From Geothrix edaphica (GTDB lineage Bacteria; Acidobacteriota; Holophagae; Holophagales; Holophagaceae), in the NCBI RefSeq assembly GCF_030268045.1, contig NZ_BSDC01000003.1, positions 496,001 through 560,000 on the forward strand: a stretch of 64,000 nucleotides of DNA. The letters are read 5' to 3'. Numbering within the stretch: the stretch's first letter is position 1; every line of letters begins with the position of its first letter. Under the pieces are notes generated by a model. That model was given only the letters and a program-made list of their open reading frames with translations. It was not told the DNA's origin and ran no database searches. The position numbers and the translations under genes were made by a program. This document shows positions 37,176 through 62,760 of the stretch, piece after piece.

Positions 37176-37188
37176 GAAGGGCTCCACG

Positions 37189-38864: not shown

Positions 38865-38879
38865 CTATCATAGTGATAG
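38865..38879. promoter_or_regulatory. Palindromic operator-like site between divergent genes
   Basis: CTATCA-TAG-TGATAG, a perfect 6-bp inverted repeat with a 3-bp spacer, with a further CCCTATCATACC nearby. It sits mid-way between the two start codons of divergent genes, as expected for a shared regulator site. Confidence 0.45.
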
Positions 38880-38957
38880 TGTTTCCCTATCATACCGCTA
38901 TTGTTCGTTCTTCTACAGGTGAATTCTACACATTGCTCGAACTGAGGATAATTTGTT

Positions 38958-39716: not shown

Positions 39717-39800
39717 CTCGACTCAGGCGGGTCTACACGAACCCACACCTAAGATTTTAAGGAACAGATTGATAGCACACTCCTGGACGACAGTAGGCAC

Positions 39801-40601: not shown

Positions 40602-40604
40602 TGT

Positions 40605-43460: not shown

Positions 43461-43580
43461 GCATCCAGCGTAGCCGCGGCTGGCCTGAGTCGGGGATCCC
43501 AGTGAGGGCATGGGTGAACGAGATGACCTTCTCCCTGAAAATGGGTCCGAACATTCAGTGCTACCCACCTCCCTTCTGCT

Positions 43581-46514: not shown

Positions 46515-46645
46515 CGCAAGCCCCACGCCCGTCCTGCCCAGGTCAGGGCCGTCCCGTCATGCCTCCACCACGCCCACACCGAACCCCTCCGAGGGGATCC
46601 AAGTATGGCGAATAAAAAACGAAAATCAAGCCTCGTCTGGGGAGC

Positions 46646-47311
46646 CTAGGCTACGGGCAGGATCAACTCTGGCCCGTCACTCCGAACATTTCCGACCGCA
46701 GGGCTTACGGGGTGGGCGGCCATCCGGTCGCTCGGGAATGGGACGAGCAGGGGCTGGACCTCGCGGGGCTGGGAGGCAGGATCCAGCCAGAGGTCCCAGG
46801 TCTCCTTGGGCAGGATCACGGGCATGCGGTTGTGGATGTCGGCCATGAGGCTATTGGGCCCGGTGGTGATAATGCAGGCGCTGATCATCACCTCTCCGTT
46901 GGGGCCCTGCCAGTCCTCCATCAGGCCCGCGAAGGCAAAGAACCCCTCATCCTTCGGGTGGATGTAGAAGGGCTGCTTTCCTTTTCCCTGGACCTGCCAC
47001 TCGTAGAAGCCGGTGGCCGGCACGATCACGCGCTTTCGCTTGAAGGCCGCGCGGAAGGTGGGTTTCTCCGTCAGGGTTTCCGCCCGAGCATTGATGGGCT
47101 TTGAGAACTCGTTGGGGTCCTTCACCCAGGCCGGGATGAGCCCCCAGAAGGCCACATCGGCGAGTCTTCGCCCTCCTTCCGGGCGGACGATGATGATGTA
47201 CTGACCCGGGGCGATGTTGTAGCCATCCCGGATGGCGAAGCCCGGCGGCACCAAGCCGAACGCCTCGGTCAGGTTGGCAGCACTGAGGGTGAAGGTGTAT
47301 CGACCGCACAT
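46646..47311 (-). CDS. SRAP/HMCES (YedK) family abasic-site DNA-protein cross-linker
   Basis: 221 residues. The start is fixed at ATG 47,311 because Cys2 (Met-Cys-Gly-Arg-Tyr) must become the N terminus to attack abasic DNA. Asn-Ala-Arg-Ala-Glu-Thr, Thr-Gly-Phe-Tyr-Glu-Trp and His-Asn-Arg-Met-Pro supply the conserved Asn, Glu and His. It shields abasic sites in single-stranded DNA. It lies 131 bp upstream of the polymerase gene, and both are SOS-type functions. Confidence 0.95.
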   Translation of the reverse strand: MCGRYTFTLSAANLTEAFGLVPPGFAIRDGYNIAPGQYIIIVRPEGGRRLADVAFWGLIPAWVKDPNEFSKPINARAETLTEKPTFRAAFKRKRVIVPATGFYEWQVQGKGKQPFYIHPKDEGFFAFAGLMEDWQGPNGEVMISACIITTGPNSLMADIHNRMPVILPKETWDLWLDPASQPREVQPLLVPFPSDRMAAHPVSPAVGNVRSDGPELILPVA

Positions 47312-47512
47312 GTGGGGCATGATGCCCGGAGGCTATGATTTTCGGAAGAATTCAGAGATAAAACCTCACGATGTGGATTTGATTAATTTCCAAATTTACA
47401 GGCAGGTCAGGGTCGTAGGCTGCTTTCAAGTATCGAGGAATATCTTGTCTATTCGACCAGTTGATCGCTAGGCACGATGAATGGTCGGCAGGGTAGCCAA
47501 TGGCGAGGGGGC

Positions 47513-47743
47513 CTAGCCACGAAGCATTTCACTCAGTTCAACCCCAAGTGCATCTGCCAAGGCTTCCATATTGTCGACCGAAATATTCCTCTCGCCGCGT
47601 TCTACCGAGCCCACATAGGTCCGGTGGAGGTTGACAAGATCGGCCAGGTCCTCCTGGGAGAGGCCTTTCTGCGTCCGAATACTGCGAAGGTTCTCGGCGA
47701 ACCGGAGTCTTGCAGGTATACGCCTTACGCCCTTCTTGGCCAT
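47513..47743 (-). CDS. XRE-family helix-turn-helix regulator
   Basis: 76 residues from ATG 47,743 (a TTG at 47,761 is also open). Phe-Ala-Glu-Asn-Leu-Arg-Ser-Ile-Arg and Gly-Leu-Ser-Gln-Glu-Asp-Leu-Ala-Asp-Leu-Val-Asn-Leu-His-Arg-Thr-Tyr-Val-Gly are a Cro/C1 helix-turn-helix close to the controller (C) proteins of restriction systems. It may control the neighbouring restriction or SOS-type genes; the target is not shown. Confidence 0.88.
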   Translation of the reverse strand: MAKKGVRRIPARLRFAENLRSIRTQKGLSQEDLADLVNLHRTYVGSVERGERNISVDNMEALADALGVELSEMLRG

Positions 47744-47849
47744 AAGGGCGATCGTCGGCAATTGACGACTATGAATCTACAGACTATAAGTAGCATTGTC
47801 GAGCTAATCTTGCAACATCACCCCTACCTGAGGGCGGATGGAGAGAAGC

Positions 47850-48260
47850 ATGCAGGACGAATCGCAAGGCGCCTTCAAGCGACGATTGAGGAAGTACCTT
47901 TCAGAAATGGAAAGGGCCCAACCGTTACACGCGCAGGGACATCGAGTCTCTGGTGGCAGGTGCCATCTTGACGCAGAGACATTCGAACTGCTGACTCGCC
48001 ACTTTAAGAGAGGGAAGTATTCCAAAGGGATTATGGAAGGCTTTGTGCGTGTGATTGGTGTGACCAGTTCAGCAGACCTCCAACGGTCCTCCAACGCCGC
48101 CAAGCTACTGAGGTCAGAGAAGGGAGGGCACATCGTGCAGGTCTCGGCCTTCAAGAACGAGATGGACGAGGTGAAGAAGGCCGCTGCTTTGGCTGATTTG
48201 ACCGTACCAGCCTTATTGGAGGCATGCACATACCTGTTCGTGCGAGTCGGGCTTCACTGA
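47850..48260 (+). CDS. Hypothetical protein of 136 residues
   Basis: Started at ATG 47,850, which has GGAGAGA at the right distance (an ATG at 47,838 is in frame). The protein is basic and helical with a Leu-Leu-Thr-Arg-His-Phe-Lys-Arg-Gly-Lys-Tyr-Ser middle and a C-terminal Leu-Leu-Glu-Ala-Cys-Thr-Tyr-Leu-Phe. No family is recognised. Confidence 0.5.
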   Translation: MQDESQGAFKRRLRKYLSEMERAQPLHAQGHRVSGGRCHLDAETFELLTRHFKRGKYSKGIMEGFVRVIGVTSSADLQRSSNAAKLLRSEKGGHIVQVSAFKNEMDEVKKAAALADLTVPALLEACTYLFVRVGLH

Positions 48261-48377
48261 GGTTGAATGAATAATCAATTCCAAGCGAAGGAACTAGCGG
48301 GGGCCGGCGCCCGATTACTTCTCACTGGATTTATCGCCTGATGGCCAAAGCTCACTCAGAGAAGACTCCGCCCCATT

Positions 48378-49139
48378 ATGATGGTCAGACAATTCTTGTC
48401 TAGTTTGACAACCGAGATTGTAGATGAGCCAATCATGACTGAAACTCCAGAACAGCGTAGAGTCAGACGATTATTCACTGCGACTCCCGAGGAGCTCGGG
48501 GCGGCTGCTGTGCGAGGGGCCCTGAGGAGGAAAGAGCACGGGGCCCTTCCCGATTTCCCGTCAGTCTGCCCCGATGCTTGCCCATACTGCGGACAAGAAC
48601 TCGGGTCAGGGTGCGAATCCCAGGAGGTAGAGGCTGGGGTCGCCTATTCCTGCGCGACGTGCCACAACATTGTCTACTTCGTTCCGAAGGACCCCTCGAC
48701 AGTTGATCTCGGTCGTAAATTCGCGTTAGAAGAGGACAGATTCGCGGCCCTGGATGCACGGGGGTGGGCCAGTAATCTCTCGGATGAAGAGAGAATGGCC
48801 GAGGCTGTGAATAAGGGATTGGTCCCCGCCGGGCTGAGGGCCTACTTTCGAATCATGCACCTATGGGGTATCGGCGAAGAGGAAGCCTCGGTTCTCTTGG
48901 GGTTCGACCATAAACCTACAGAGATCGAGATTGGAACCGATCCCCTGAAGCGGATCTCCCATACCATCGGAATCTACAGAGCACTACACACCCTGCTTGC
49001 TCTCGAATCCGCCAACGCATGGGTGAAACAACCAAACACTGATGAGCTCTTCAGGGGAAGGCCGGCCTTGGAGCTTCTTCAGACGGGGACCCAGGGATTC
49101 GAGCAATTACGGAACTACCTCGCAGCGAACCTCTCGTAG
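48378..49139 (+). CDS. Zinc-ribbon protein with an Xre/MbcA/ParS-like toxin-binding domain
   Basis: 253 residues (an internal ATG at 48,435 is a possible later start). A zinc ribbon (Cys-Pro-Tyr-Cys, Cys-Ala-Thr-Cys) lies at about 69-95. The C-terminal 70 residues (Asp-Pro-Leu-Lys-Arg-Ile-Ser-His, Phe-Arg-Gly-Arg-Pro-Ala-Leu-Glu-Leu-Leu and Leu-Arg-Asn-Tyr-Leu) fit the MbcA/ParS antitoxin domain that binds RES-type toxins. No RES toxin is next to it, and the zinc-ribbon fusion is unusual, so it may be a lone antitoxin or a different switch. Confidence 0.65.
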   Translation: MMVRQFLSSLTTEIVDEPIMTETPEQRRVRRLFTATPEELGAAAVRGALRRKEHGALPDFPSVCPDACPYCGQELGSGCESQEVEAGVAYSCATCHNIVYFVPKDPSTVDLGRKFALEEDRFAALDARGWASNLSDEERMAEAVNKGLVPAGLRAYFRIMHLWGIGEEEASVLLGFDHKPTEIEIGTDPLKRISHTIGIYRALHTLLALESANAWVKQPNTDELFRGRPALELLQTGTQGFEQLRNYLAANLS

Positions 49140-49186
49140 GCAGGCAGTTCCAAGGGAACCCATTGTTACAGAATTGATTGTTGTGG

Positions 49187-50128
49187 TCACATAAGTTCAT
49201 CTTCATCAGCCTGAATCTGGGTGTGGGAAAGCAGATGGTCCCACCTCAGGATAGGCGATTCCCCAAGGTGTTTCCCGATCAGCCTGAAGACCTTTTTCAG
49301 GTCCATCAGCACATTATCCCGGAGATCTACGCAGAATCGCTTCCAGCGGAAGTCTCTGACTTCTGCATGCACATTACCCATGTCGTCGTTCATCGAGCCG
49401 CGCGCATTCCATCCGATGGGGGCCGTCAATCTACCCAGTTCGACACTGTAGGTGCGTTTCACCGTTGCGAAGTCTTCCTTCACGTGAGCGAGATTGACCA
49501 TACCGCCCATCCAGTTGTGTTCAGATTCCCCAAGTTTGACCAATCCGTATCGAACCCGATTCAAATGGCGAACCCATTTTTCAGGGGGGGAGAACATAAC
49601 CAGCCTCGCCGGATCGAGGGCTACTGACTTGCCGGGCGAGTAATCCTCGGGTGCATTGGTTGGTACAATCTGTAATACCTTGCCGCCGATTCGAAGGATC
49701 GATTCTGAAGGGATCCAAAGGAGTCTCGCAGCCTTTAGTTGGCGCGTGTGGACCCCTTGATCCCAGCCTAAGCAAAGTTCATAGGTGCTTTTCCCATAAG
49801 AGACCATTTCCTGTGCCACCGCAGCTACGAACCACTTCACTGCATCCTGAAGGTCCTCGTGGTAGCGATCAGTTCGGAGGCTTCCTGCTAGGATCCGCTG
49901 AAGGTCCTGTGAACAGCCATCTACCCAGACGGACTTCTTCAACGAGCCGGATCGATCGTGTTGAACACTGTTGAATTGGTGAAAGATCTGGTTGTTTACA
50001 TCTTCGGCGCACATCCAAAGTTTGGACCCAGGATCATCTAGGCGGGACTTGATACCAATGTGGTGGTACCAAACAGACGCCCGTTCCCACTGGAGGGTTT
50101 CTTCTGAGTCCGCTCCGTGAAGTCGCAT
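49187..50128 (-). CDS. Hypothetical protein of 313 residues, partner of the membrane protein upstream
   Basis: Its ATG directly follows the stop of the membrane-protein gene (no gap), so the two are a pair. It is soluble, rich in Trp and His, with Trp-Phe-Val-Ala-Ala-Val-Ala-Gln-Glu-Met and Trp-Asp-Gln-Gly-Val-His-Thr. No family is recognised. Confidence 0.55.
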   Translation of the reverse strand: MRLHGADSEETLQWERASVWYHHIGIKSRLDDPGSKLWMCAEDVNNQIFHQFNSVQHDRSGSLKKSVWVDGCSQDLQRILAGSLRTDRYHEDLQDAVKWFVAAVAQEMVSYGKSTYELCLGWDQGVHTRQLKAARLLWIPSESILRIGGKVLQIVPTNAPEDYSPGKSVALDPARLVMFSPPEKWVRHLNRVRYGLVKLGESEHNWMGGMVNLAHVKEDFATVKRTYSVELGRLTAPIGWNARGSMNDDMGNVHAEVRDFRWKRFCVDLRDNVLMDLKKVFRLIGKHLGESPILRWDHLLSHTQIQADEDELM

Positions 50129-52726
50129 TTACTCACCTTCGCCAAGGTTGAGTTCGCGTAAAAGGCTTTCAACCTTATACGGCAGGGACAGTCCTTTGGC
50201 CGCTTCCTGTTTGGCAAGGTACAGAGCTCCGAACACCTCGAAGGGTTCCTGGTATGGGTTCCCTAGATGAAAGCCCATCGCATCAATCAATGGAGGGATG
50301 GTTCGCGGCCCCCTGGACGTACGTGGATTGAATCCGAAGATTTCCTCTGATTCGATTCCACGCCGCACCAATCCCTCACGAAGCGTCCTCTCCCATTTCA
50401 GTCTCTGCATGGAACTGGGTGAGAACATCGGAACCATTGTTGGATTATCGATGCAGTGGAATTGATCCTGAACGAACGCAGATGGATCGGGCGAGTTTTC
50501 AATCAGTTTGTCCCATAGAATATGTGCGGAGTCCCAGCAACCTGATTTATCGATGTCCGAATAGATCAACGCCAAGCCTGAAAGGGTCATCAAATCTAAT
50601 TGGAGATCCATCACAACCGAATTCCTGTAATTTGAATTCCTCGGATCGATACGCCTCAGTAGTTCGGCTTTGATGGCTTCACTGGCGAGTAAATATGCTG
50701 GGAATAACTTCGAGAATGACTTTTTATCTTTCTCATCAAGCGCCTTGACGAGTTCATCCCCGATATTGGCTCTCGCAATTCCAAGTACATCCGGAAGGTC
50801 CTCCTCACCAATGGCACTGGAACATAAACCCGGGACGACCTCAGCCCAAATATGAATGAGCTTGGAGTGCGATATCTCAATGGTCTTTAGAGCCTCGTCG
50901 CCTCTGCTCTCAGGGTCTGCCCCATTGGGTTCACTGATGCTTTTCAGATTTGCGTAAACGTCTTTCAGAGTGTGGACCTGTATCATCCCCTTCTCGCATG
51001 CTTCCAATCCACGAATCACGAGAATGCTCGCCCATAGGGGCGCCTTTGATTGGACCAAGAAGGCAATAGGTTGAACGAGCCCTCGATCGATGTTGGTTGG
51101 AATCTGCGCGATTTGAGCTTTGATAACATCCGCATAGGCCAACGCGACTACCCGTCTGACATGCCTTGGTTGCGTTCGCAATTCCCCTTCCACTTCGAAC
51201 TCGAATTGAAGGCGTGAAGCGAAATCCTCAAGAACGCGGAGAACCTGCCGTGGGTGGGCCACCTTATAGATTCGCCTTCTATCCAACGACAAAAGATCAT
51301 CCACGGTGCCTTCGATCAAATCGTCGGTGTTATGGGCCAACTCTTGCGCAGGGTGGAGGATCGGCGCTATCGCCGCAAATCCCAGTAGGTCCGCAAGCTG
51401 AAGATGCTTCTTCGGTTCCTGCAATGGTTCAGCCTGCGATAGGACCTGGGTGGTTCTGGATATCATTTCATCCAGTAGGCCCTGTGCAGAGGTGTTTTCA
51501 TAGACCCGCGAAAATGCTTCAACCAAGTACCCGTAGTCCAAGAGGAGCGTGGCCACATCATCCAAGGCATTGCGCTCCACCAGGGTGGACAGACATTTCA
51601 TGAGCATGGATATGCAGCGGGTCTCAATTTGTTGATGATCCGCAACGGGAGCCGAAGTAGGCATGGTTCCCGTTTCAAGGGCAATGGATGTGGAAGAACT
51701 ATTCATCGACTGAAAGCGTTGGAACTCCGCTTTTTGGGGAAACCATCGACTCGTGCTCGGGATGGATGTCTTCACGATTGCATGAGCTTTCGCCACATGT
51801 ACGACCGCTTGCGCCAATGAGAGTATGGCGTCGTTGCGCGGGTAATCGTCCCGTGTGACCTCTAAAACCAAATCTTCGAGGATTAGAACTTGTTCATTCG
51901 CTCTATTGCAAGCGTAGACCTGGAACGATGGATCTAACCATAGGCGTCCTCCCCGCGTCATAGTCTGAATCTGTTGGACGAAGGTTTGAATCGGCATTGG
52001 TGCAAGCGCCGCTGGATCAAACAATCGGAAGATTTGGCTTCCAATTGGGATGAATCCCAACAAACAAAGCCCAGATAATAGGAGCATGTATGCGATGAAT
52101 ATAGTTGAAGGTGGGACATCGAAGCCAGTTAGGGCCACCCCAAGAATTGAGGTCATCGCAGTGTGGGAAAGCAACCTGATGTATCGGCGGTTGAATTTGT
52201 CTTGCACAATTAAATTGCGAACTGCAGGTTTCACCTTTAAGAAGGTGGTACTGGCCACGATGCTCATGGCGGTGAAGAACAAAGCCAGTACCGCCGCAGA
52301 GGCTTGGGCGATGGTGATTAGCAGCGTGATGTAAATTCCCAGATTGAAGGACGAAATGAAGGATTGCCACGCCTGGAAAGGACCGTGGCTTTGGAAATGC
52401 GCCGGCAGAAGCACTAAAAGGATCACCGCCAGGATCGAATAAATTCCTTGAGGCGTGACCTGGCGAAGAAGCCATTTAGTAGCTCCCAACCCATCTCGCC
52501 CGTCTTTCATCTGTTCAATTTGAATATGGAGAGTTCTATCTCTTCGAAAACGCAGGGACTCGATTTTTCGCGAGGCCCAAATCCCGAGTTCGGTTCGCCT
52601 CACCAAAAACAAACCAAGTTGTGGCGAGCTTGCCTGGATCCATCGATTGAAATGGGAAATCCAACTCTGCATCCCATGAATCCAGCGAAGGCTAGACGTT
52701 CGGGATTGGTGAGTTGACTGGACCAT
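50129..52726 (-). CDS. Large membrane protein of unknown family
   Basis: 865 residues from ATG 52,726 (TAAGG upstream). About four membrane spans lie between residues 90 and 230 (Ile-Leu-Ala-Val-Ile-Leu-Leu-Val-Leu-Leu, Leu-Leu-Ile-Thr-Ile-Ala-Gln and others), with an arrangement like DUF2254 membrane proteins. A long soluble C-terminal part of about 600 residues follows and looks helical. Together with its unspaced partner it is a candidate defence or stress module, by location only. Confidence 0.6.
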   Translation of the reverse strand: MVQSTHQSRTSSLRWIHGMQSWISHFNRWIQASSPQLGLFLVRRTELGIWASRKIESLRFRRDRTLHIQIEQMKDGRDGLGATKWLLRQVTPQGIYSILAVILLVLLPAHFQSHGPFQAWQSFISSFNLGIYITLLITIAQASAAVLALFFTAMSIVASTTFLKVKPAVRNLIVQDKFNRRYIRLLSHTAMTSILGVALTGFDVPPSTIFIAYMLLLSGLCLLGFIPIGSQIFRLFDPAALAPMPIQTFVQQIQTMTRGGRLWLDPSFQVYACNRANEQVLILEDLVLEVTRDDYPRNDAILSLAQAVVHVAKAHAIVKTSIPSTSRWFPQKAEFQRFQSMNSSSTSIALETGTMPTSAPVADHQQIETRCISMLMKCLSTLVERNALDDVATLLLDYGYLVEAFSRVYENTSAQGLLDEMISRTTQVLSQAEPLQEPKKHLQLADLLGFAAIAPILHPAQELAHNTDDLIEGTVDDLLSLDRRRIYKVAHPRQVLRVLEDFASRLQFEFEVEGELRTQPRHVRRVVALAYADVIKAQIAQIPTNIDRGLVQPIAFLVQSKAPLWASILVIRGLEACEKGMIQVHTLKDVYANLKSISEPNGADPESRGDEALKTIEISHSKLIHIWAEVVPGLCSSAIGEEDLPDVLGIARANIGDELVKALDEKDKKSFSKLFPAYLLASEAIKAELLRRIDPRNSNYRNSVVMDLQLDLMTLSGLALIYSDIDKSGCWDSAHILWDKLIENSPDPSAFVQDQFHCIDNPTMVPMFSPSSMQRLKWERTLREGLVRRGIESEEIFGFNPRTSRGPRTIPPLIDAMGFHLGNPYQEPFEVFGALYLAKQEAAKGLSLPYKVESLLRELNLGEGE

Positions 52727-53282
52727 TATTGCCTTAGTGTGTGAACGGAGTATGGCAGACCGAATCTTACTTCGCGAGTCTCGGCGACTGTCTACCGCTC
52801 TCACACAGCTTTAGCGTCACATCCCATGCAAATCCGCGCTCAGAGGATACCCGTTGCATTGACACCATTGAATCGGAATTGGGAGTCGAATCGGGGGCTC
52901 TGCCCCCGTACCCCCGGGGTTTATCGCATAAGGACCAAAGCTCTCGCTGAAAGAATCGATCCCAATTTGCGGCCAGGTAGAAGAAGGGCCTCCTTGTGGG
53001 AGGCCCTTGAAGCGTGAGCTTCGGCCCCAGCTCGGCGCTCGGGTCGCATCCCTGCGTTGCCCTATCCTCCGGCTGGCTGGAAGAAGGGTAGGCCCACAAA
53101 TCTCCCTCGACAAGTCCTAGCTGTGTTTCCTCCGACCCGGTGCTGACGGTGGTTCAAGTGCCTGCCCTAGTGCATCTGCGTCGCCGAAGAAGGCGGCCTA
53201 AGGAATGTTGGGATTTACCGATTCCATTCGGCGACTCTTGCGCCTTGGATGCCGGGGGCGGAATATTCTCTGAGAGGTCCGA
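52727..53282. other. Stretch with no gene, containing hairpins
   Basis: No supported frame is seen on either strand. A short stem GGGGGC / GCCCCC lies near 52,898 and a longer one AAGGGCCTCC / GGAGGCCCTT near 52,984. They may end transcripts from either side. It separates the membrane-protein pair from the small antitoxin-like gene. Confidence 0.4.
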
Positions 53283-53528
53283 GTGCCGAAAAAAAATCTC
53301 AATGACTCACGGCCTTCCTCACAACAGGCGGGAGAGGATCAAGAGATTGCCGAGATCATTAACGCGGTTCTCCCCTTGGCTGGGTCAGAACCAGTAGCAT
53401 TCGCATGGTATCGCTCTCAGTGTTTGCCTTCCTTTGGGGACCGAACTCCAGAGGATCTCGTTCGAGAAGGCAGAGCGGAGGCGGTGAAGTCTTACATAAG
53501 TCGAATCGCCGTCGGTGGCCAAGCCTAG
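53283..53528 (+). CDS. Small MbcA/ParS-like (DUF2384) protein
   Basis: 81 residues, starting at GTG 53,283. The second half (Phe-Gly-Asp-Arg-Thr-Pro-Glu-Asp-Leu-Val-Arg-Glu-Gly and Val-Lys-Ser-Tyr-Ile-Ser-Arg-Ile) matches the toxin-binding domain of MbcA/ParS antitoxins; no DNA-binding part is present. It converges on the helicase gene with 6 bp between stops. No toxin lies beside it. Confidence 0.6.
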   Translation: MPKKNLNDSRPSSQQAGEDQEIAEIINAVLPLAGSEPVAFAWYRSQCLPSFGDRTPEDLVREGRAEAVKSYISRIAVGGQA

Positions 53529-53534
53529 CGTTGG

Positions 53535-55634
53535 CTACTTCTCAGCATGAGCTAGGCCGTGGTTTCTCCTGAAGGGAGCCGGTGGCGCTTCAACAGCCAG
53601 CTTGAGCGCGCCTGCATCGCCGATGAAGACGACCTGTTCTGTGGCACGGGTCAGCGCCGTGTAAACCAAGGTCCGCTCAAGAAGACGGCTCCTGAATACT
53701 GGGGCAACAACTCGCCTGAACTGGCTTCCCTGAGCCTTGTGCACTGAGATGGCATAGGCCAGATCCAGTGAGTCCAGGTCAGAAACCCCCATGTCCATCA
53801 GCTTGTCATGTCCATCCCAAAGGACGGAAAGCGATGTGGGGCCTGCGGCCTGAACCACACCGAGAGTTCCGTTCCAGATTTTCCGGTCGTAGTCGTTCTC
53901 CAGCCAGATCACCGGATCGTCCACCGCAAACCCCTGCCACTGGTCCCGACCGGCCGCCCGTAGATGGTGAAGCGCGGCATTGATGGCCTTGATGCCAGCG
54001 AGTCCGTTCTTGATGGGAGAGAGGATCTGGACCTCGCCAGGGCCGCCAAGTTCCGAGACCAATTCGATCACCTGAGCCTGAGCCTCTGCACTGGTGCAGG
54101 GCATGAACGAGATGCCAGCTTTTGGCCCCTCGTAGGATTTCAGCCCAGGCATGGTCCCCATGCGAATCTGCCCAGCAACCTGAGGGATCCCTGTCTCTTT
54201 AGCCTGTCGGTGAACCTGCATCAGTTCCACCTTGGGGACTCGATCATCCTCAGCGTAGACACCGAACACCAGACCCATCCCAATGGGGGGAAGCTGGTAG
54301 GGGTCGCCTACCATAAGGAGCCGTGCGTCCTCAGGGATTGCTCGCATGAGGCTATAGGCCAGCGGGAGGTCCACCATTGAGGCCTCATCGACCACCACCA
54401 AATCTGAGCCGCCTAGTTCCAGTTCGCCGCGTTCCGCGGCTCCGAGGAACCCGGCGATTGTTCTGGCCGGACGACCCGTGGCCTCCGTCATGCGGATCGC
54501 CGCTCTGCCCGCCAGGGCGACAGCATGGACCGTGCCCTGCAGCCTCTCGGCCCCCCACATGATGGCCTTCAGCACCGTGGTCTTCCCCGTGCCGGCGCCG
54601 CCAAGGATCATCCCCACTCGCTGGGTTAGGGCCATCCATACGGCCTGCTTCTGCTCATCCGTAAGCTTCAGGCTGTTCTCGGCCTGGAACTCGGCCAGTA
54701 ATTCATCCACCTTGGCGTCTGACGGGGCGGCCCAGAACAGATGCCCGGCTGGAACGTGCTCGGCAGTGACCATCGCTGCCAATCGGTCCCGAAGATAGGT
54801 CTCCATCACGTGGGGTCCTAGGGCCTGCCATCGACCTTCCCCTAGCCTCACCACGGCCTGGTCTCCTTCCGCCAGCTCCAGGGCCTTTTCCGCCCCATCC
54901 CGGCCCACCTTCAGGAGCCTGCCCACACCCAGCAGCAACTCCCCTTCCTTGATGACTGTGTGCTTGTCGGCCATGGATAGGTAGCAGACAGTCTCCACGG
55001 CCGCGATCTGACGCGCCTCTGCGTCCTGGGGGAAGCCGATGAGCTGGGCTGCACGGTCGACCTGCTCCCAGCCGGCCACGGCCAGCATGCGGTAGGGGTT
55101 CTCCTGGATCTTCTCTGGCGCAAGAGCGCCCCAGAGCTTAACCACCTTCGCCGCCAGGCGGACCGGGAACCCTTTCTGGTCCAGCCACTCCACCACACGG
55201 GCCTCGGCACGGGCCTCCTCCCAGGCCTGGACCAGCGTCCCGGCGACCTCTTCTCCGATCACCTCGGCCAGGGACAGGGCATCCTTGGCATCCAACAGGG
55301 CGATAAGACCCTTCCCGAACTTCTCCCACAGCATCTTGGCCCGAACATCTCCGACCCCCTGAAAGGCCCGATTCCGGGCCAGAAAACGGCGAAGGTGCTC
55401 CCCCTCGGGAACCATAGGAATCGCGAGGGTGGCTTCGAGTTGGAGGCCCCACTTCGGATGAGTTCTGTTCTCCCCCTGGACCCGCCAGAACTCCCCGGGC
55501 CGCGGCGGCCGGGAGATGACATTCTCGCTGGCGATGACCTTGTGGGTGGCACCCGCCTGGTCTTTGCCCTGGAAAACCGCACCACCTTTGGGGCCAAGCC
55601 ATACCTGCGAGACGGTCAGGGTCAGCTCCGTCAC
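53535..55634 (-). CDS. RecD2-like helicase of the island recombination operon
   Basis: 699 residues from GTG 55,634, which overlaps the preceding TGA (GTGA). The N-terminal 300 residues have helix-hairpin-helix features (Gly-Val-Gly-Asp-Val-Arg-Ala-Lys). The SF1 motor has Gly-Gly-Ala-Gly-Thr-Gly-Lys-Thr (345-352), Val-Val-Val-Asp-Glu-Ala-Ser-Met, Gly-Asp-Pro-Tyr-Gln-Leu-Pro-Pro and, near the end, Ala-Ile-Ser-Val-His-Lys-Ala-Gln-Gly-Ser. It is a 5'-3' DNA helicase type. As last gene of the recombinase operon it probably helps DNA processing during transfer or integration. Confidence 0.85.
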   Translation of the reverse strand: MTELTLTVSQVWLGPKGGAVFQGKDQAGATHKVIASENVISRPPRPGEFWRVQGENRTHPKWGLQLEATLAIPMVPEGEHLRRFLARNRAFQGVGDVRAKMLWEKFGKGLIALLDAKDALSLAEVIGEEVAGTLVQAWEEARAEARVVEWLDQKGFPVRLAAKVVKLWGALAPEKIQENPYRMLAVAGWEQVDRAAQLIGFPQDAEARQIAAVETVCYLSMADKHTVIKEGELLLGVGRLLKVGRDGAEKALELAEGDQAVVRLGEGRWQALGPHVMETYLRDRLAAMVTAEHVPAGHLFWAAPSDAKVDELLAEFQAENSLKLTDEQKQAVWMALTQRVGMILGGAGTGKTTVLKAIMWGAERLQGTVHAVALAGRAAIRMTEATGRPARTIAGFLGAAERGELELGGSDLVVVDEASMVDLPLAYSLMRAIPEDARLLMVGDPYQLPPIGMGLVFGVYAEDDRVPKVELMQVHRQAKETGIPQVAGQIRMGTMPGLKSYEGPKAGISFMPCTSAEAQAQVIELVSELGGPGEVQILSPIKNGLAGIKAINAALHHLRAAGRDQWQGFAVDDPVIWLENDYDRKIWNGTLGVVQAAGPTSLSVLWDGHDKLMDMGVSDLDSLDLAYAISVHKAQGSQFRRVVAPVFRSRLLERTLVYTALTRATEQVVFIGDAGALKLAVEAPPAPFRRNHGLAHAEK

Positions 55635-56047
55635 GGGATCACCCGCCTCCCAGTCTCGACCATGTGCTGCTCGATGTGCTGGTACCGCCTCAATTTCTGC
55701 CGCAGTCCCTCCACCTCGGCCTGGAGGGCGGCGTTCCGTGTCTCCAATGTCTGGATGCGGCGGTCCTTGGCGTCGTCCTTGGTCGGTCCCGCCTCCCGGG
55801 TCCCCATCGGGGCAAGACCCAGTTCCTGGGCGGCGGCTTCGAGAATCGCCCGGCACTTAATGTTCTTGTAGATGCTCTGGAGGTCCACCCCGGAGGCCAG
55901 GGCTACAGCCTTGGCTGAGACCTTGCCATCGCGGGACGGGACCCCTTTACCCTCCGCTCGCAGGGCCTCCAGGTACCGCGCGAGGGTCCGGGCGTAATCG
56001 TCCCCGATCTGTTTTCCGTTCATTCGGGCCTCCTCCGAGGTTTTCAC
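55631..56047 (-). CDS. Small HTH-coiled-coil protein (TnpC-like)
   Basis: 138 residues from a GTG at 56,047 that overlaps the TGA before it. Val-Ser-Ala-Lys-Ala-Val-Ala-Leu-Ala-Ser-Gly-Val-Asp-Leu-Gln-Ser-Ile-Tyr-Lys is a helix-turn-helix, and Arg-Ile-Gln-Thr-Leu-Glu-Thr-Arg-Asn-Ala-Ala-Leu-Gln-Ala-Glu a C-terminal coiled coil. Similar small proteins accompany Tn554-type recombinase sets (TnpC). Role inferred from that: strand or orientation control of integration. Confidence 0.65.
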   Translation of the reverse strand: MKTSEEARMNGKQIGDDYARTLARYLEALRAEGKGVPSRDGKVSAKAVALASGVDLQSIYKNIKCRAILEAAAQELGLAPMGTREAGPTKDDAKDRRIQTLETRNAALQAEVEGLRQKLRRYQHIEQHMVETGRRVIP

Positions 56048-56442
56048 GAATCACTCCTCAGCAGGGGGATCTCCTTATCCAGAGGTTTCTCGAGGTCCTG
56101 AGGCAGTTTGTCCCAGCGGATGGCTCGCTCGATATGGCGCAGGAAGCGCAGGTCGTACTCCGCCAGCGCCTTCTCCAACTCCTCCACTCGGGCTTGGAGG
56201 TTAGCGATCTTCCGCTCGGCGTGATCCTTCTCCACCAGGTTCTCGCGCCTGCCACGCCGCGCCAGGTAGGTGGCCTTGATCTCAGGCTTGCGTTCTAGCG
56301 CCTGGCGGGTGAATTGATGCTTCAGGTGGATTCCGACTTCTCGGCACACCGCCTCCCAAGTAATTGTCGGCAGAGGCCAGGCCTTGATGATCGCGCAGAC
56401 TTGGACGATATCGTCCTGGGTGAGATGGCGGAAGGCGCTCAT
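56044..56442 (-). CDS. Small coiled-coil protein of the recombinase operon (TnpC-like)
   Basis: 132 residues from ATG 56,442, which overlaps the previous stop by one base (TGATG). The N-terminal part (Thr-Trp-Glu-Ala-Val-Cys-Arg-Glu-Val-Gly-Ile) looks like a helix-turn-helix, and a central coiled coil (Ala-Asn-Leu-Gln-Ala-Arg-Val-Glu-Glu-Leu-Glu-Lys-Ala-Leu) follows. Its form matches the accompanying 138-residue protein, so the two may act as a pair. Confidence 0.65.
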   Translation of the reverse strand: MSAFRHLTQDDIVQVCAIIKAWPLPTITWEAVCREVGIHLKHQFTRQALERKPEIKATYLARRGRRENLVEKDHAERKIANLQARVEELEKALAEYDLRFLRHIERAIRWDKLPQDLEKPLDKEIPLLRSDS

Positions 56443-58352
56443 CAGCAAGCCTTCTCTCTCTTCCGGTAAGGAGAAAGTTGGACCAAGTACCCAGAGGGGA
56501 TCTTCGGATCGAGGTGGATGTCCAGCATTCGCACTAGGCCTTCCCGGCGCTCCATCTCCACATTCAGCCAGCGGTCCTTGTTGAAGTAGCCGGCTTCGGT
56601 CTGCTTCTGGTACCGGGCGATCGTCTCATCACACTCTGCCAGTTGCTCCTTGGTCTCCTTGATGTGGCCTGCGTTGCCCTTAATCACGATCAGCCCCGTA
56701 CACCGTGCGCAGGCTTCCGGCATGGTGGGCGGGGTGGTGCCTTCCGCATGACTACACAGTCCCAGCCTGGAATAGCTGATATTCCCGAGCATGGTTCCCT
56801 TGAGCTCTGCCCGGCGGATCGGGTCTTTGATGTTCTTCAGGATATCGGCCCAGGGACCGATGAACTCACCTCGTTCCAAGGCTTGGCGTACCACCTCCAA
56901 CATCTCCCAGGGCTGCATGTGGTCGTAGTTGCGGTTCGCTACGGCAGGATTGCGAGAGCTCCTATTGAAGTAGCCTGCGATTTCCAATTCGCTCAGCCCC
57001 GCCCGCTTCATCCAGGTGGTGAGCGTGTGCCGGGGGTCGTGAGTGGAAAAGCCCCAAAACTTTCCCGAGTCGGGATCTCTCTTGTCAAAGCGCTCGAAGC
57101 AGGACTTTACGTTTGTGCCTCCTGCTAGGAAGTGGTTGATCTTCATTGCTTTCAAACGGTCTGCGGTGCCGTTCAGGCCATTGCGGCTTCCCATGAAGAA
57201 GCCGCTGCTGATCACGAAAAGAGATTCGTGCAGTTCCTGCGGCCAAGGCTCCATGACCACCTTGCCCAGGAAGCTCCTAGAACGGACAAGTTCGCGAATG
57301 TCCGGAGTATTGAGGGCGTACCGCATGCCGCCTCTTCCCTCGCGTAAAACCATTGGGTAGGTCCCGGATTTCCCAAGAATCCTTCCCGTGGATTGAGCTG
57401 TGACACCAAGCAGTTCCGCGGCCTCAGCCGCGGTGTATGCCCGATCATTCTCCAGACCCGGCAGATTCACGCGACCCTCGTAGAGGGCACGGGCGTTCTC
57501 CCGGAAGGGATCCGTGATCCGCCGAATCTCATCCAGGCATTCCTTCATCAACGGGATGAGGTCGCTGGGAATCCACTTGGGCTGCGTCGCCTCGGAGAGA
57601 CCATTCTTCTCAGGCACGTAGCCCAGGAACACTCCCTCCAGGATCCGACCCTGGCTGTCCCTACCCGTTCTTGGATGCCAGCAATCTACCGGCATCGAGA
57701 GAAGTTCGTTGATTCTGAAGCCAGTACAGAGCAGCATCGTCGCCGTACAAGCCAGTAGGCGATCCTGGTCATTGTCTGTCCCCTTCATGATCTCCTGCCA
57801 AATTGCCCCGAACCCTTTGATCGCACCCGGCGGGATCATATGTTCATCGCCGTTCGACTCAGGCAGGGAAAATGGGTTGCGGAAGGTGATCAGGCCTTTC
57901 GTCAATCGATTCAAGTTGAGGGCATTTGCCAAGCTTGCGAGTTCTTTACCATTGTTAAATTTGGTCACGTCGGTCAAATCGTCCCTATTTCGCAAGTCTT
58001 CGACCGCCTGATGGAAGTGGTCCGCAGATATGGTGGTGAGATCCTTGACCCCAGCAACCACCCTGGAAAAATGCCGTGCAGACACTGTGAAATTTTTACA
58101 ACTGAACCCACTCCTGCCGTTCTTCGGGGCGCTCTCATTGGCGACAACAGCCTTGAGAAGGCTCTTGAACGGTTCCTCGAACCTAGAGAAATCGTGGCGG
58201 CGGTCCATCCTGCCTGCCTCGCGTTTAGAAGGCAGCTGCCAAATGTCGGAATCGAAATCGATACCGAAGGCAGCCATGACGAGTCGTCGTCCCTCGATGA
58301 TGTAGGCCTGAAGCCGCTTCGCCGATTCGGTGAGGTGAGGGTCAATACTCAT
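56442..58352 (-). CDS. Tyrosine recombinase, third of the trio
   Basis: 636 residues. The catalytic set is seen: Arg in Thr-Gly-Phe-Arg-Ile-Asn-Glu-Leu-Leu, His-x-x-Arg in Thr-His-Asp-Pro-Arg-His-Thr and the nucleophile in Asn-Arg-Asn-Tyr-Asp-His. A Cys-rich motif (Gly-Leu-Cys-Ser-His and Ala-Cys-Ala-Arg-Cys) follows the catalytic domain, as in the larger recombinase of Tn554-like sets. The start overlaps the previous stop (ATGA). Confidence 0.85.
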   Translation of the reverse strand: MSIDPHLTESAKRLQAYIIEGRRLVMAAFGIDFDSDIWQLPSKREAGRMDRRHDFSRFEEPFKSLLKAVVANESAPKNGRSGFSCKNFTVSARHFSRVVAGVKDLTTISADHFHQAVEDLRNRDDLTDVTKFNNGKELASLANALNLNRLTKGLITFRNPFSLPESNGDEHMIPPGAIKGFGAIWQEIMKGTDNDQDRLLACTATMLLCTGFRINELLSMPVDCWHPRTGRDSQGRILEGVFLGYVPEKNGLSEATQPKWIPSDLIPLMKECLDEIRRITDPFRENARALYEGRVNLPGLENDRAYTAAEAAELLGVTAQSTGRILGKSGTYPMVLREGRGGMRYALNTPDIRELVRSRSFLGKVVMEPWPQELHESLFVISSGFFMGSRNGLNGTADRLKAMKINHFLAGGTNVKSCFERFDKRDPDSGKFWGFSTHDPRHTLTTWMKRAGLSELEIAGYFNRSSRNPAVANRNYDHMQPWEMLEVVRQALERGEFIGPWADILKNIKDPIRRAELKGTMLGNISYSRLGLCSHAEGTTPPTMPEACARCTGLIVIKGNAGHIKETKEQLAECDETIARYQKQTEAGYFNKDRWLNVEMERREGLVRMLDIHLDPKIPSGYLVQLSPYRKREKAC

Positions 58353-60103
58353 TTGGATGCCCCCTCCAAACGCTGGATCTTCATGATCACGACCCCCATT
58401 GCGGCGAGGTGCCTGTCGTACCGCTTATACTCAGCCTCTGGCAGTCCCCGGTGGATTAGGACCTCTCGCCGCGCCCAGAGCGCGTCGTAAACCTTTTGGT
58501 GGGGAGCCTCCACGATGGGTGTGTATGTCGGGCACACGTAGCAGTCGATCGAGCCGTTCATGGCGATCGGGCATCCAGAGGCCCCAATGCAGCCGCAACG
58601 CCCCGTCCCGCCGACTTGGGTTCCCTGTTTATCGATTTCCAACCAGGGAGGAAACGGCACCAACTTCTCAGGTTCCACCTCGTCCGCATGGATCGGCTCG
58701 TTCGGCTCGAAACATTCCGCTAGCTGGGAGAACTCCGGCACCTGGTTCAGCCTCTCCGTGAGCCGCACCCCAGGCCCGAAGTACGGCCTGATGCTCTGGA
58801 CTTGCTTGTTATGCAGCGCCGCGATCACCTCGAGAGGCGTTCCGGACAGGATGTGGTTGGTAACAAACCCATCCCGGAAGGAGTAGAACGTGGGCACGAT
58901 CACCCCGCCCTTGCCATCCGGTATCCGCAGGGCCTCAAATAGAGTTCGGAGGTCAGTCAATAAGACATTCGCCGGCTTCTCAAACCCTTTAGCAAGATCC
59001 TCGTGGGGAAGACCGTAAACCTTGCGAGCCCAGGAACCGGTCCCTTCTTGGGCTGTCATGAACAACGGCCAGTCCAGGGAGTTGTCGAGACCCACCCGAG
59101 CTCGAATTTCCCTGTTCTCCGCGATAAGTTCCGGCACCAACCGAGCGAGTTCGTTGCCCATGGGCAACGGCCCCTGGATGGCCTTGTAGTCAGCGTGGCG
59201 GATCTTACTCTCCGGCATCCGAATCTGTGCCAGCGCCGTCTCGCCCTCAACCTCGATGAACTCGAAATGGCTTTCCCGCAGTTTGCGGAAAGCGTCGGGT
59301 CGGTCACCGAATCGCCAGGCCAGCCAGCCCAAGACCAGATCAGCAATACCCACGTGGGAGGGGCGCAGAAGTTGGCCGCCCTTGCGGATCACACAGTACT
59401 TACCCTCAGTTCTTCGGGTTTCCCCTGAACGAAGCGGGCGGTACAGTACTTGTCCATCCCGCAGGAGGCCCTCGGCCTTATTGAAATACGCGGCAATCAC
59501 CGTGAGTGTCGTCACATCGTAGACCTCCCGGTTCTTGGCGGCCTTGCTGCGCGGGGCGCCAGGCGCCGCCTCCAGGCGCTTCACGAGTGGAACGGGTGCG
59601 TCGATCCTGACCTGCTTCAGTTGGACGCAGACATACTTCGTGAAACCGGGGATTCCCTTGCCTGCCGCCCAGGAATAGAGACGTCTCACGACTGAAAAAT
59701 AGTCCCTCCAGGCGCCAGTGTACAGTTCTCGGAGATGGCGCTGGACGGCCAGGATGTCCGCCAATTCGATCTCCTCGGTCCGTTCCCAGGGTTCAGTCAA
59801 GATGTCCCAGTTCTTGATACTGAGGATTCGACGAAACTCTGTCAGTGCGTGCCTCTCCGACTTGCCTTGCAGTAAGGCAGCGACGTAACCCATCAGCACG
59901 CGCAGCATGATTGGCGTAGTTTCAACACGGGTCCAGTCGATGATTCCACTGCCGAGTTCGGGGGGCAGACGCCAGACAAGGCCCGAGGTATCGATGATGT
60001 GTCCCTCTCGGGCCTGAATCGAGGCTGGGATGGACGACAGCACCTCCCTGAGAGGGTCCCTGTTGGGCTCCGTTTCTGCCCGAAGGGCCATCCCGGGGTT
60101 CAA
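58349..60103 (-). CDS. Tyrosine recombinase-like protein, second of the trio, degenerate active site
   Basis: 584 residues from TTG 60,103 (GAGGA upstream; an ATG at 60,091 is also possible). The end of the catalytic domain reads Phe-Tyr-Ser-Phe-Arg-Asp-Gly and Gln-Ser-Ile-Arg-Pro-Tyr-Phe: the expected His of HxxR is Tyr, while a final Tyr may remain. A cysteine-rich segment (Cys-Gly-Cys-Ile-Gly-Ala-Ser-Gly-Cys and Cys-Tyr-Val-Cys) follows. It is likely a structural or regulatory partner of the active recombinases. Confidence 0.8.
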   Translation of the reverse strand: MNPGMALRAETEPNRDPLREVLSSIPASIQAREGHIIDTSGLVWRLPPELGSGIIDWTRVETTPIMLRVLMGYVAALLQGKSERHALTEFRRILSIKNWDILTEPWERTEEIELADILAVQRHLRELYTGAWRDYFSVVRRLYSWAAGKGIPGFTKYVCVQLKQVRIDAPVPLVKRLEAAPGAPRSKAAKNREVYDVTTLTVIAAYFNKAEGLLRDGQVLYRPLRSGETRRTEGKYCVIRKGGQLLRPSHVGIADLVLGWLAWRFGDRPDAFRKLRESHFEFIEVEGETALAQIRMPESKIRHADYKAIQGPLPMGNELARLVPELIAENREIRARVGLDNSLDWPLFMTAQEGTGSWARKVYGLPHEDLAKGFEKPANVLLTDLRTLFEALRIPDGKGGVIVPTFYSFRDGFVTNHILSGTPLEVIAALHNKQVQSIRPYFGPGVRLTERLNQVPEFSQLAECFEPNEPIHADEVEPEKLVPFPPWLEIDKQGTQVGGTGRCGCIGASGCPIAMNGSIDCYVCPTYTPIVEAPHQKVYDALWARREVLIHRGLPEAEYKRYDRHLAAMGVVIMKIQRLEGASK

Positions 60104-60165
60104 GGAGTCCTCTTGCGAAAAACCGGAGTGCGCTTTGCATTAAGCACTTGGTGACTCCACAGAAG

Positions 60166-61458
60166 TTAAAAAGGCATTTCTTCCCGGATCTTCATGGCCT
60201 CGTAGATTCGCTCGGCAGAGGTCTTCTCCAGGACCTTCCCACCGAGATCTCGGAGCGCAATCCGCATGTAATGACTCGGCATCTTGCTACGCTCGGTCCA
60301 CCCCATCTCGTAGCGCATCGTCCGGTCATCATTAGCGGTCCAACCCTCATAGCGGGCCAGCAAGTATCGGACACACCAGTCATGCCGAAGGTCGTGGGGT
60401 GAGAAATGAGGATCGAATCCCACCTTCAAAAGCTGATGTCCATTACGGCGCTCCGGATAATGCCTTCGCAATATCTCGAATAGAGCTGACAGGCGGCGCA
60501 CGGAGAGGGGGCGCACGGCTCCCTTCAGAACGTCCAGCCGCTCGGAAACGAATACATAAGGGCATTTTGGAGCTCCTGGGAACCTCTTCTCGTCCATCCG
60601 GTCAACCTCAAGCCACCGCTGAAGGGTAGCCATGCTGAGGGAAGAGAATAGGCGCTCCCGACCCTTTCCACGCTTGGCTCCGCTCGGAGCGCGACCTCGA
60701 GTTTCAAGCCTGTCATTCCTCCTCGCCGCAATGCGGAATACCATGCGGTCTAAGAACACATCGTCAACCCGCAACGCCAAGAGTTCCCCCATCCGCATGC
60801 CGTGCTCATACAACATGAGGAGAAGCGCGTAATTCCTGACCTGCATGCCCGGCTCAAAAGGATTTAGAGGGCTCCCAGGCTGGATGACGCTTAGGAATAG
60901 CTCACGCTGTGGTGAGGTCAATCCAGAGCTTGTACTAGAAGTCTGGTTCGGGTTGGTCTCAGTTGATTCATCCGTGACCCAGGACCCAACCCATTTCTCA
61001 AACCGTCGGTCCACCACCTTGTGAGTGGAGCCCTGGAGTTTGTATATGTAACCGCTGGCCAACCAGCAGAGATACTCGCGGAGGAACCCGACACGGGCAG
61101 CCTTGATGTGCGGAGCGACCCGTAGCTGCTTGGTGGCCTTCTCGGGGTCATGGAGATGAATGGCGAGCCCCATCAGGGCTTGGGCCTCGGAAGTTTCGCC
61201 GGGCGACAGAAACTTCCCGCTTCGCACTCGCTCCGCCCAGTCCAGACCCGGCCCGCCCTGAAATGAGAGCCAGTGGGCCACCGCACGGAGTTTAGAAAGC
61301 ACAGTTGCGTAGGCGTTGCCCTTCGGCACCAAGCTTCCGAGCGTCCAGAACGTCGTCTCATAAATTGGCAGTTCGTCACGGCACAAGAGCGGTATCCGCA
61401 GCCCGGAAGCCAACCGAATATTACGGATCCTGTATTGGCCGGGTTTGGGTGGCTCCAT
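60166..61458 (-). CDS. Tyrosine recombinase, first of the trio
   Basis: 430 residues from ATG 61,458 (GAGGTAG upstream). Arg222 in His-Gly-Met-Arg-Met-Gly-Glu, His355-Asp-Leu-Arg358 and Tyr397 in Ser-His-Tyr-Met-Arg form an intact R-H-R-Y site. An N-terminal SAM-like core-binding domain is expected in residues 1-190. It is the first gene of the six-gene operon and lies nearest the right end of the island, 141 bp from the junction, as usual for an integrase. A candidate promoter (TTGCTG, 17 bp, TATATT) precedes it. Confidence 0.9.
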   Translation of the reverse strand: MEPPKPGQYRIRNIRLASGLRIPLLCRDELPIYETTFWTLGSLVPKGNAYATVLSKLRAVAHWLSFQGGPGLDWAERVRSGKFLSPGETSEAQALMGLAIHLHDPEKATKQLRVAPHIKAARVGFLREYLCWLASGYIYKLQGSTHKVVDRRFEKWVGSWVTDESTETNPNQTSSTSSGLTSPQRELFLSVIQPGSPLNPFEPGMQVRNYALLLMLYEHGMRMGELLALRVDDVFLDRMVFRIAARRNDRLETRGRAPSGAKRGKGRERLFSSLSMATLQRWLEVDRMDEKRFPGAPKCPYVFVSERLDVLKGAVRPLSVRRLSALFEILRRHYPERRNGHQLLKVGFDPHFSPHDLRHDWCVRYLLARYEGWTANDDRTMRYEMGWTERSKMPSHYMRIALRDLGGKVLEKTSAERIYEAMKIREEMPF

Positions 61459-61598
61459 GACGACTACCTCTACAATTAATATAGTTCCGGGTAAGACGCC
61501 CAGCAAGATAAGCGAATGCAATGCCAAAATCTTGCTAATGTCTAGCATTTTTTGCAATAATAACCGGTATTCTTTACAGCAACCCATAGGTGCGAATT
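61459..61598. other. Right end of the island
   Basis: Between the first recombinase and the intI junction lie a short palindrome TGCTA-N5-TAGCA (61,533-61,547), AT-rich runs and, 18 bp from the edge, GCTGTAAA (minus strand). An inverted GCTGTAAA lies at the same depth from the left edge. These are candidate recombinase binding sites. Confidence 0.55.
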
Positions 61599-62542
61599 AT
61601 GGTGGTGGCCACGTCCTTGTGCCCCAGCAGCTCCTGCACGGTGCGGATGTCGTGGCCCGCCGCCAGCAGGTGCGTCGCGAAGCTGTGGCGCAGCACGTGG
61701 GGCGTGACCGGCTTCACCAGCTCCGCGGCCCGAGCCGCCAGCCGCACGGCCTTCTGGACGCTCTCCGCGTGGAGGTGGTGGCGGCGGACGAGGCCGGAGC
61801 GGGGATCCGCCGAGCGCTGGGCCGAGGGGAAGACCCACTGCCAGCCCCAGGCCCGCGCCGCCTGAGGCGACTTGAGCCCCAGCGCATCCGGCAGGCCGAC
61901 CTCCCCGAAGCCCTCGGCGAGGTCCCGGGCATGCAGCGCGCGCACCCGGCCGAGGTGGGCCCGGAGCGGCTCCACCAGGCGATCTGGGAGCATGGTCACC
62001 CGGTCCTTGCCCCCCTTCCCGTCCCGCACCACGATCTCGTGCCGCTCGAATTCCACATCCTTCACCCGGAGGCGCAGCCCCTCCATGAGCCGCATCCCCG
62101 TTCCGTAAAGCACCTGGGCCAGCAGGGCCATCCCGCCCTCCATCTGGTCGAACAGCGCGCGCACCTCCCCCGGGGTGAGGACCACCGGAAGCCGCGGCGG
62201 GCGCCTGGCCTGGACCACCTCGGACAGCCAGGGCAGGTCCACCTCCAGCAGGTTCCGGTAGAGGAACAGCAGGGCGGCCTTCGCCTGGTTCTGGGTCGAG
62301 GGCGACACGTGGCGCTCCACCGCCAGATGGCTCAGGAAGGCCTGCACCTCGGCAGCCCCCATCTCCCTCGGATGCCGCTTGCCGTGGAAGAGGATGAACC
62401 GCCGCGTCCAGTCCACATACGCGTCCTCTGTCCGCAGGCTGTAGTGCCGGACCCTCAGGCTGTCCCGCAGCTGGTCCATGAACTTCGGCGGCTGCACCCC
62501 CACGATCCGCCCTTCACCCGTCTGCCTATTTTTCCCGAGCAT
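61599..62542 (-). pseudogene. intI: Integron integrase IntI, main part, truncated before its tyrosine
   Basis: Started at ATG 62,542 (an upstream GTG and a later ATG at 62,479 are possible). About 313 residues remain. Core-binding domain: [12 protein letters not shown]. Catalytic Arg in Gly-Thr-Gly-Met-Arg-Leu-Met-Glu, IntI-specific insert [11 protein letters not shown], His-Val-Leu-Arg-His-Ser-Phe and Leu-Gly-His-Lys-Asp-Val are all intact. Coding sequence ends at Ala-Thr-Thr-Ile, just before Ile-Tyr-Thr-His; that part is at 33,226. Read-through adds a few foreign residues to a stop at 61,574. The gene is opposite in direction to the cassettes, as in all integrons. Confidence 0.92.
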
Positions 62543-62760
62543 AGGACCCACCCCGATCGCCTCAGATCGCCTATTGCGCTAACCTGTGCCAGCTTTCCAC
62601 CGCAGAATTGCTAGGGTTGACACAATTTATCGCCTTTTTTTCGCCCGTCAAGCCCCCCCAAAAGTTCGCCCATTCCCCCAAACCACAACCTCACCCCGCC
62701 CCCACCCCCCCAGGACTAGGCGAACTCCGACCCCCAAACCACCCACTGTCCAATTTAAAG
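62543..62760 (+). other. attI region of the integron
   Basis: Between intI and the first GTTAGGC core (62,760-62,766). Two direct GATCGCCT repeats (62,555 and 62,565) next to GCGCTAACC could be IntI-binding sites. A TTGACA (62,617) lacks a good -10. The stretch AGGCGAACT...GTCCAA before the core resembles the segment before the next core, so this core may be an attC rather than attI. Confidence 0.45.

Follow-up and report, generated by a model that had tools for sequence, protein, structure and literature searches.

A GInt-like island interrupting the integron integrase gene of Geothrix edaphica carries a helicase module found behind several recombinase sets

To which mobile system does an operon belong that combines three tyrosine recombinases, two small coiled-coil proteins and a RecD-like helicase in an Acidobacteriota genome? 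The operon in question lies in a 64,000-nucleotide stretch of Geothrix edaphica (contig NZ_BSDC01000003.1, positions 496,001 to 560,000; the window), where six open reading frames (ORFs) follow one another on the minus strand in the order A-B-C-s1-s2-H between positions 53535 and 61458. Frames overlap by 4 nt at B/C, s1/s2 and s2/H and by 1-7 nt at C/s1, depending on the choice of s1 start (TTG 56448 or ATG 56442), and 62 nt separate A from B. An earlier reading of the letters alone, hereafter the sequence-only reading, had described six genes on one strand, the last five overlapping, as three tyrosine recombinases with a RecD-like helicase and two helix-turn-helix (HTH)/coiled-coil proteins. 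The ORF coordinates bear out this layout, a Pfam match for A, NCBIfam and PDB profile matches for B and a PDB profile match for C confirm the recombinases, and matches to TIGR01448 and VPA1267_fam, both below their cut-offs, support the helicase and s2. We find that the first four genes are very probably a ginABCD operon, making the element a GInt (Tn6571 family), and that s2 and H probably form a separate, portable module.

GInts are defined by ginABCD, directly behind which their cargo starts (Bardaji et al. 2017; PMC5385486). The same work reports circular intermediates, site specificity, 6-nt staggered cuts and imperfect direct repeats of 10-17 nt that flank the islands as a result of site-specific insertion; all four gin genes are needed, and ssb is among the favoured targets (PMC5385486). 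In the window, three tyrosine recombinases share one operon at one end of the element, s1 is the small gene directly downstream, and imperfect flanking repeats of the GInt type are present as ATAATTCGCACC/ATGATCTACACC. ginABCD is the hallmark of GInts, and since A-B-C-s1 corresponds to it, the trio has a place among known systems. A GInt has been reported at E. coli hotspot 39 (Hochhauser et al.), which according to a further paper is ssb-yjcB, and hidden Markov models (HMMs) of the window families match the element there (L152) with 356, 483 and 605 bits for A, B and C. The ABC operon of this hotspot occurs in 380 of 5426 complete E. coli genomes. Comparison of empty and filled sites establishes that relatives are mobile: in E. 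coli W5-6, set against K-12, the element occupies the 3' end of ssb, with CCGTTC as an exact 6-bp repeat; pTROUS1, set against pCT14, carries a related element at the same place with the same exact repeats; and two copies of the E. coli element, one from a chromosome and the other from a plasmid, are 99.8% identical over 12 kb. E. coli GInts at chromosomal ssb and at the ssb of F-like plasmids have Avs4 as cargo (L151, L152, L153).

The order and families of ABC-s1 recur in Alpha-, Beta- and Gammaproteobacteria, E. coli included, and in 42-45 of 47 loci, helicase-less elements among them, the gene in fourth place belongs to the s1 family. Scoring covered 38 ABC loci, namely the window, with its operon at intI, and 37 others with sufficient upstream sequence; in 17 of them ssb lies immediately before the operon, and the ssb-site label clusters on the recombinase tree, with 7 changes against 14 in shuffles. 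Of 24 elements at ssb, 13 have a TGT placed 22 nt in from the core, the spacing also seen in the window, and the window's element ends, imperfect direct repeats and subterminal TGTAAA box match those of GInts at ssb in other bacteria. No displaced ssb tails were found within the retrieved loci, the elements being longer than those loci. A cargo-free ABC-s1 element of 5.6 kb sits between strB and strA on P. aeruginosa plasmids (L018:4528-10153), with a 9-bp shared repeat, TGCCAATGA, and the frames of C and H are broken in a Rhizobium beringeri copy (L019). A host locus considered as a second trio (G000:C1:106-118 kb) has none apparent in its ORF layout.

The whole element (33292-61598) is far larger than the 53535-61458 span first reported. 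It splits a chromosomal integron integrase gene, intI, at the catalytic-Tyr codons, displacing the 3' end of the gene by 28.3 kb to 33226-33291. The junction repeats ATAATTCGCACC and ATGATCTACACC are imperfect direct repeats identical at 8 of 12 positions, ATGATCTACACC being uninterrupted intI sequence, and GCTGTAAA is found inverted at both element ends, 20-22 nt in from each. An intI match was obtained in 32 of 47 same-genus genomes, and the uninterrupted site, ATGATCTACAC(C/G)CA, is present in 16 of 19 retrieved same-genus relatives. Upstream of intI (62600-64000), inspection by eye suggests a cassette array at the end of the contig, with short ORFs and repeats of TTAGGC type; an Rfam scan of this integron side returned nothing of note.

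The recombinases are only 13-24% identical to most relatives. The Arg of HxxR and the nucleophilic Tyr are invariant in 38 of 38 aligned members each of A, B and C. B has no Pfam match and an NCBIfam match to integrase_1 (3.5e-15); its family profile matches XerA (8e-11) and Tn1549 Int (1e-9) in the PDB, and its predicted fold matches Cre (AlphaFold2 (AF2)/Foldseek probability 1.0, E 2e-3, from a model with a pLDDT of only 70). The family profile of C matches XerA at 5e-6. The Tyr that replaces the His of HxxR in the middle recombinase, singled out by the sequence-only reading, is indeed there, as one of several residues at that position; because the His is absent from most of the B family, we regard the substitution as a family trait and rejected it as a special feature. 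Both B and C have C-terminal Cys clusters, that of B being an invariant Cys4/His cluster. None of the three recombinases matches the GmtY, GmtZ or GmtX models of the gamma-mobile-trio (GMT) system (NF040693, NF047926, NF040692), and the trio was rejected as a gamma-mobile-trio on that ground.

The two remaining genes have different affinities. s2 matches the VPA1267_fam model NF040697, the fourth of the GMT models used, at E 4.9e-9 and 36.5 bits against a curated cut-off of 90 bits; its predicted fold is an HTH followed by a long C-terminal helix, and a fold search against the PDB gave no match below 1e-3. H scores 411 bits against the RecD2 model TIGR01448, below the equivalog cut-off of 500, and is therefore best described as a divergent RecD2 relative. 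It exceeds the Pfam cut-offs for HHH_RecD2, AAA_30 and UvrD_C_2 and falls below that for SH3_13, it matches the solved RecD structure 3e1s (4e-75), and it has the superfamily 1B (SF1B) helicase, OB/HHH N-terminus and SH3 insert of the RecD2 architecture.

A genome scan for H yielded 80 loci, annotated by HMMs; this sample was selected by H, and its figures give no estimate of the share of GInts that carry s2-H. The module sits behind several recombinase sets, namely gin, gmt and at least one more: it follows A-B-C(-s1) in most loci and GmtY-GmtZ-GmtX in others, such as L086, matched by the GmtY, GmtZ, GmtX and VPA1267 models, and L060, matched by those for GmtZ and GmtX. The helicase tree comprises 77 rows (41 ABC, 16 GMT, 8 of a provisional third set, 6 unresolved and 6 ordinary Bacillota RecD2), and on it H tends to group by host lineage with recombinase types interleaved. 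The GMT label requires 11 changes, at least 10 of them forced by supported branches, yet remains clustered beyond the level of shuffles, which indicates that s2-H is exchanged repeatedly but not freely. The clearest case comes from two Vibrio loci, L086 (GMT) and L088 (ABC), whose sole shared DNA is a block of 2625 bp, 94.1% identical, that begins at the s2 start codon, where the break falls exactly, and ends 25 bp beyond H; the recombinases upstream are unrelated. Likewise, H of the window, L044, L047 and L056 forms one clade (100*) and the ABC sets of these loci fall in different clades. Mantel comparisons over 38 loci gave 0.72 for A-B, 0.68 for A-C, 0.77 for B-C and 0.67 for s2-H, against 0.18-0.37 across the two sets. 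Because A, B and C co-vary, s2 and H co-vary, cross-set agreement is weak and clades differ, we conclude that the operon joins two modules with partly separate histories.

Outside these two arrangements, a further recombinase set beyond the GMT and ABC models stands upstream of s2-H in L097, L104, L109, L058, L120, L081 and L092. Homology supports only the third gene of this set ('T3'), a single recombinase-like family in seven loci; gene size was the sole ground for grouping L113, L117 and L051. The helicase precedes GmtY, instead of following GmtX, in L068, L083 and L100. Plasmid loci that were chosen by C and looked at independently of the helicase scan (L015, L018, L022, L023, L144-L151) showed H in one case only, L146.

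Taken together, we consider a GInt island with a portable s2-H processing module the likely explanation of the locus. The GinA/B/C-like recombinases and GinD-like s1 would excise the 28-kb element as a circle whose junction is predicted to read ...TATAATTGTGATAATTCGCACC..., and insertion would proceed site-specifically by a 6-7-nt staggered exchange tolerant of mismatch, the window copy having used the conserved catalytic-Tyr codons of intI as its target. Circular intermediates and the requirement for ginABCD come from published work on relatives and would apply here by analogy. s2 may bind element DNA through its HTH/coiled coil and recruit or position H, which, moving 5'-3' by analogy with RecD2, may process or copy element DNA (for example a heteroduplex or the excised circle) with host replication factors. 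Such a role would explain why H tracks host lineage while the recombinases track target site, and on balance we lean towards a mobility or replication function for H.

Several observations weigh against this explanation. The link to the reference GinABCD proteins (1448A, DSM 4166) is indirect, passing via the E. coli hotspot-39 element, and the two junctions have only AT in common, so that the exact crossover point is not fixed. Integration and excision are both achieved by a minimal ginABCD plasmid that has no helicase (PMC5385486), and H is missing from several GInt-like elements (L018, L022, L023, L147-L151), helicase-less GInts being common. H is therefore not essential, and s2-H could be a conserved first cargo. 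It would then be a widespread module with a part in defence, anti-restriction or DNA repair that happened to be captured next to recombinase operons, immediately behind them, and not mobility machinery. GInt cargo does start right behind ginD, and ginABCD was sufficient in the published assay (PMC5385486); helicase-less GInts have defence genes at that very position, as with Avs4 in L151/L152. The word 'helicase' is absent from the main text of the GInt paper (PMC5385486), and in the accessible parts of the GInt and gamma-mobile-trio literature we found no description of s2-H as part of a GInt operon. We nevertheless judge a first-cargo origin unlikely: s2-H is on the same strand with 4-nt overlaps, it is retained immediately downstream of more than one recombinase set or, in the three loci named above, before GmtY, and among loci with readable flanks no helicase of the H clade lacked recombinases nearby, six loci being unresolved.

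The low identity of A, B and C to their relatives and their failure to match GMT models could also be taken to indicate a new, Acidobacteriota-specific integration system. This we regard as very improbable, as it is contradicted by Alpha-, Beta- and Gammaproteobacteria, E. coli among them, which have ABC-s1 in that order and of those families, including at the site of a named GInt. The sequence-only reading, which had proposed a distinct Acidobacteriota integration system for defence cargo, was thus right about an integration system and about defence cargo, and wrong in suggesting that it might be distinct or peculiar to Acidobacteriota; it had left out of account the ginABCD set, which also occurs in Proteobacteria. 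Its statement that the set lacks an exact named match holds for the two small genes plus helicase and fails for the trio and s1; as to whether the trio falls cleanly in a named family with the same helicase and small proteins, the trio and s1 belong to the GInt family and s2-H lies outside the published gin set. The helicase does travel with recombinase operons, as part of a unit found in combination with more than one recombinase set.

Behind the operon, the cargo of the element appears defence-like, judging from domain matches to a multiubiquitin protein with its E1, an AbiZ-like protein and an MmeI-like type IIG enzyme (Table 1); PADLOC and Pfam scans also place a PDC-S52 protein there. A PIN/VapC-like toxin ORF was noted by eye at 36546-37016 (+). 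Antisense behind H lies a small Xre/MbcA/ParS-C (antitoxin-like) ORF at 53283-53528 (+), and a similar domain occurs within 48378-49139; no toxin to pair with the ORF was found. About 340 bp from H, at 52980-53192 (-), is a relic of a second helicase 3' end and terminator, 82% identical to the region downstream of H in L044, which appears to be the trace of an earlier exchange.

Table 1. Coordinates of the features in and around the element (window positions)
Feature	Position	Strand	Evidence or remark
A, GinA-like tyrosine recombinase	61458-60166	-	430 aa; Pfam PF00589 (Phage_integrase) 1.5e-13; R222, H355xxR358, W387, Y397
B, GinB-like tyrosine recombinase	60103-58349	-	584 aa; integrase_1 3.5e-15; PDB profile; AF2/Foldseek to Cre
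C, GinC-like tyrosine recombinase	58352-56442	-	636 aa; R213, K249, H438xxR441, Y476; C-terminal Cys residues
s1, GinD-like small coiled-coil protein	56448 (or ATG 56442)-56044	-	fourth-gene family membership
s2, VPA1267-family/DUF6262-like HTH + C-terminal coiled coil	56047-55631	-	NCBIfam profile; AF2 pLDDT 90.5
H, RecD2-like SF1B helicase	GTG 55634-53535	-	TIGR01448 411 bits; PDB RecD2 3e1s 4e-75; GTG start overlaps s2 stop
Complete mobile element (probable GInt with s2-H module)	33292..61598	.	28.3 kb; bounded by shared AT (33290-33291 / 61599-61600); interrupts intI
5' part of integron integrase gene intI	61599..62551	-	TIGR02249 8e-129
3' part of intI, beginning at catalytic-Tyr codons (ATG ATC TAC ACC CAT)	33226..33291	-	
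Right-end subterminal inverted repeat GCTGTAAA	61573..61580	-	sequence
Left-end subterminal inverted repeat GCTGTAAA	33312..33319	+	sequence
Right junction repeat ATAATTCGCACC, element version	61589..61600	-	
Left junction repeat ATGATCTACACC, target version	33280..33291	-	
Multiubiquitin protein + ThiF/E1 (DUF6791-ThiF)	33616..35002	+	PF14452 1e-7; ThiF 4e-22; PADLOC E1-E2
AbiZ-like / DUF6161	37622..38809	-	PADLOC 9e-16; PF19658
MmeI-like type IIG restriction-methylase	40605..43568	-	PADLOC 2e-238; Pfam MmeI domains
DnaE-type polymerase and SRAP protein	43581..47320	-	

GInts (2017) and gamma-mobile-trio islands (2024), two kinds of island that carry anti-phage defences, entered the literature through separate descriptions. 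They are joined by a two-gene helicase module that stands behind each and has been precisely exchanged between recombinase sets, and this makes the role of a RecD2-type helicase in tyrosine-recombinase elements testable by knock-out. A dedicated helicase would likewise make testable the replicative excision that the GInt authors consider possible for some GInts (PMC5385486). Insertion into an integron integrase at its catalytic-Tyr codons amounts to one mobile system disabling another. With our judgement evenly divided, we suggest that a single modular super-family of islands carrying defence genes may have alternative integration heads, those of GInts, of gamma-mobile-trio islands and of one or more further recombinase sets. 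Its members would have in common an s2-RecD2 helicase module adapted to the host lineage, and the heads would be swapped as cassettes, switching the insertion site and leaving the processing module unchanged.

Among known systems, Tn554 has two recombinases (the TnpA/B/C set) and RIT elements have three and nothing else. The element resembles them in its multiple tyrosine recombinases, and it has a TnpC-like small protein. The comparison is by description: two stretches of pNGR234a looked at for a RIT reference held no annotated trio, and a Tn554 reference sought via DUF6262 (PF19776) in eight genomes gave only weak matches below cut-off and was not used. The GInt authors themselves report similarity between GinD and TnpC (PMC5385486). 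Tsy elements (YRec + HTH + TnsF-like) share several recombinases and a small HTH protein, form a circular intermediate and insert at a conserved motif of the conserved gene comM; unlike the window's element, they have two recombinases and a GIY-YIG nuclease, with no helicase among the listed components (PMC10293859). Gamma-mobile-trio islands, as far as the accessible part of their description goes (Mahata et al. 2024, 10.1038/s41564-024-01840-5), share s2 (probably VPA1267 family), the helicase and defence cargo, and profile-profile comparison shows one clear resemblance, a distant one between A and GmtY (hhalign 99%, 8e-18); by contrast, the window has no equivalent of GmtZ or GmtX (C-GmtZ 24%, s1-GmtX nil; hhalign) and has an additional recombinase, B. 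The closest likeness is to GInts, whose head, at one end of the island, likewise has three tyrosine recombinases followed by a small GinD-like protein, with cargo behind it, imperfect direct repeats and a target in or at the end of a conserved gene, ssb being favoured; the element described here adds s2, probably of the VPA1267 family, and a RecD2-like helicase to the operon and has intI as its target.

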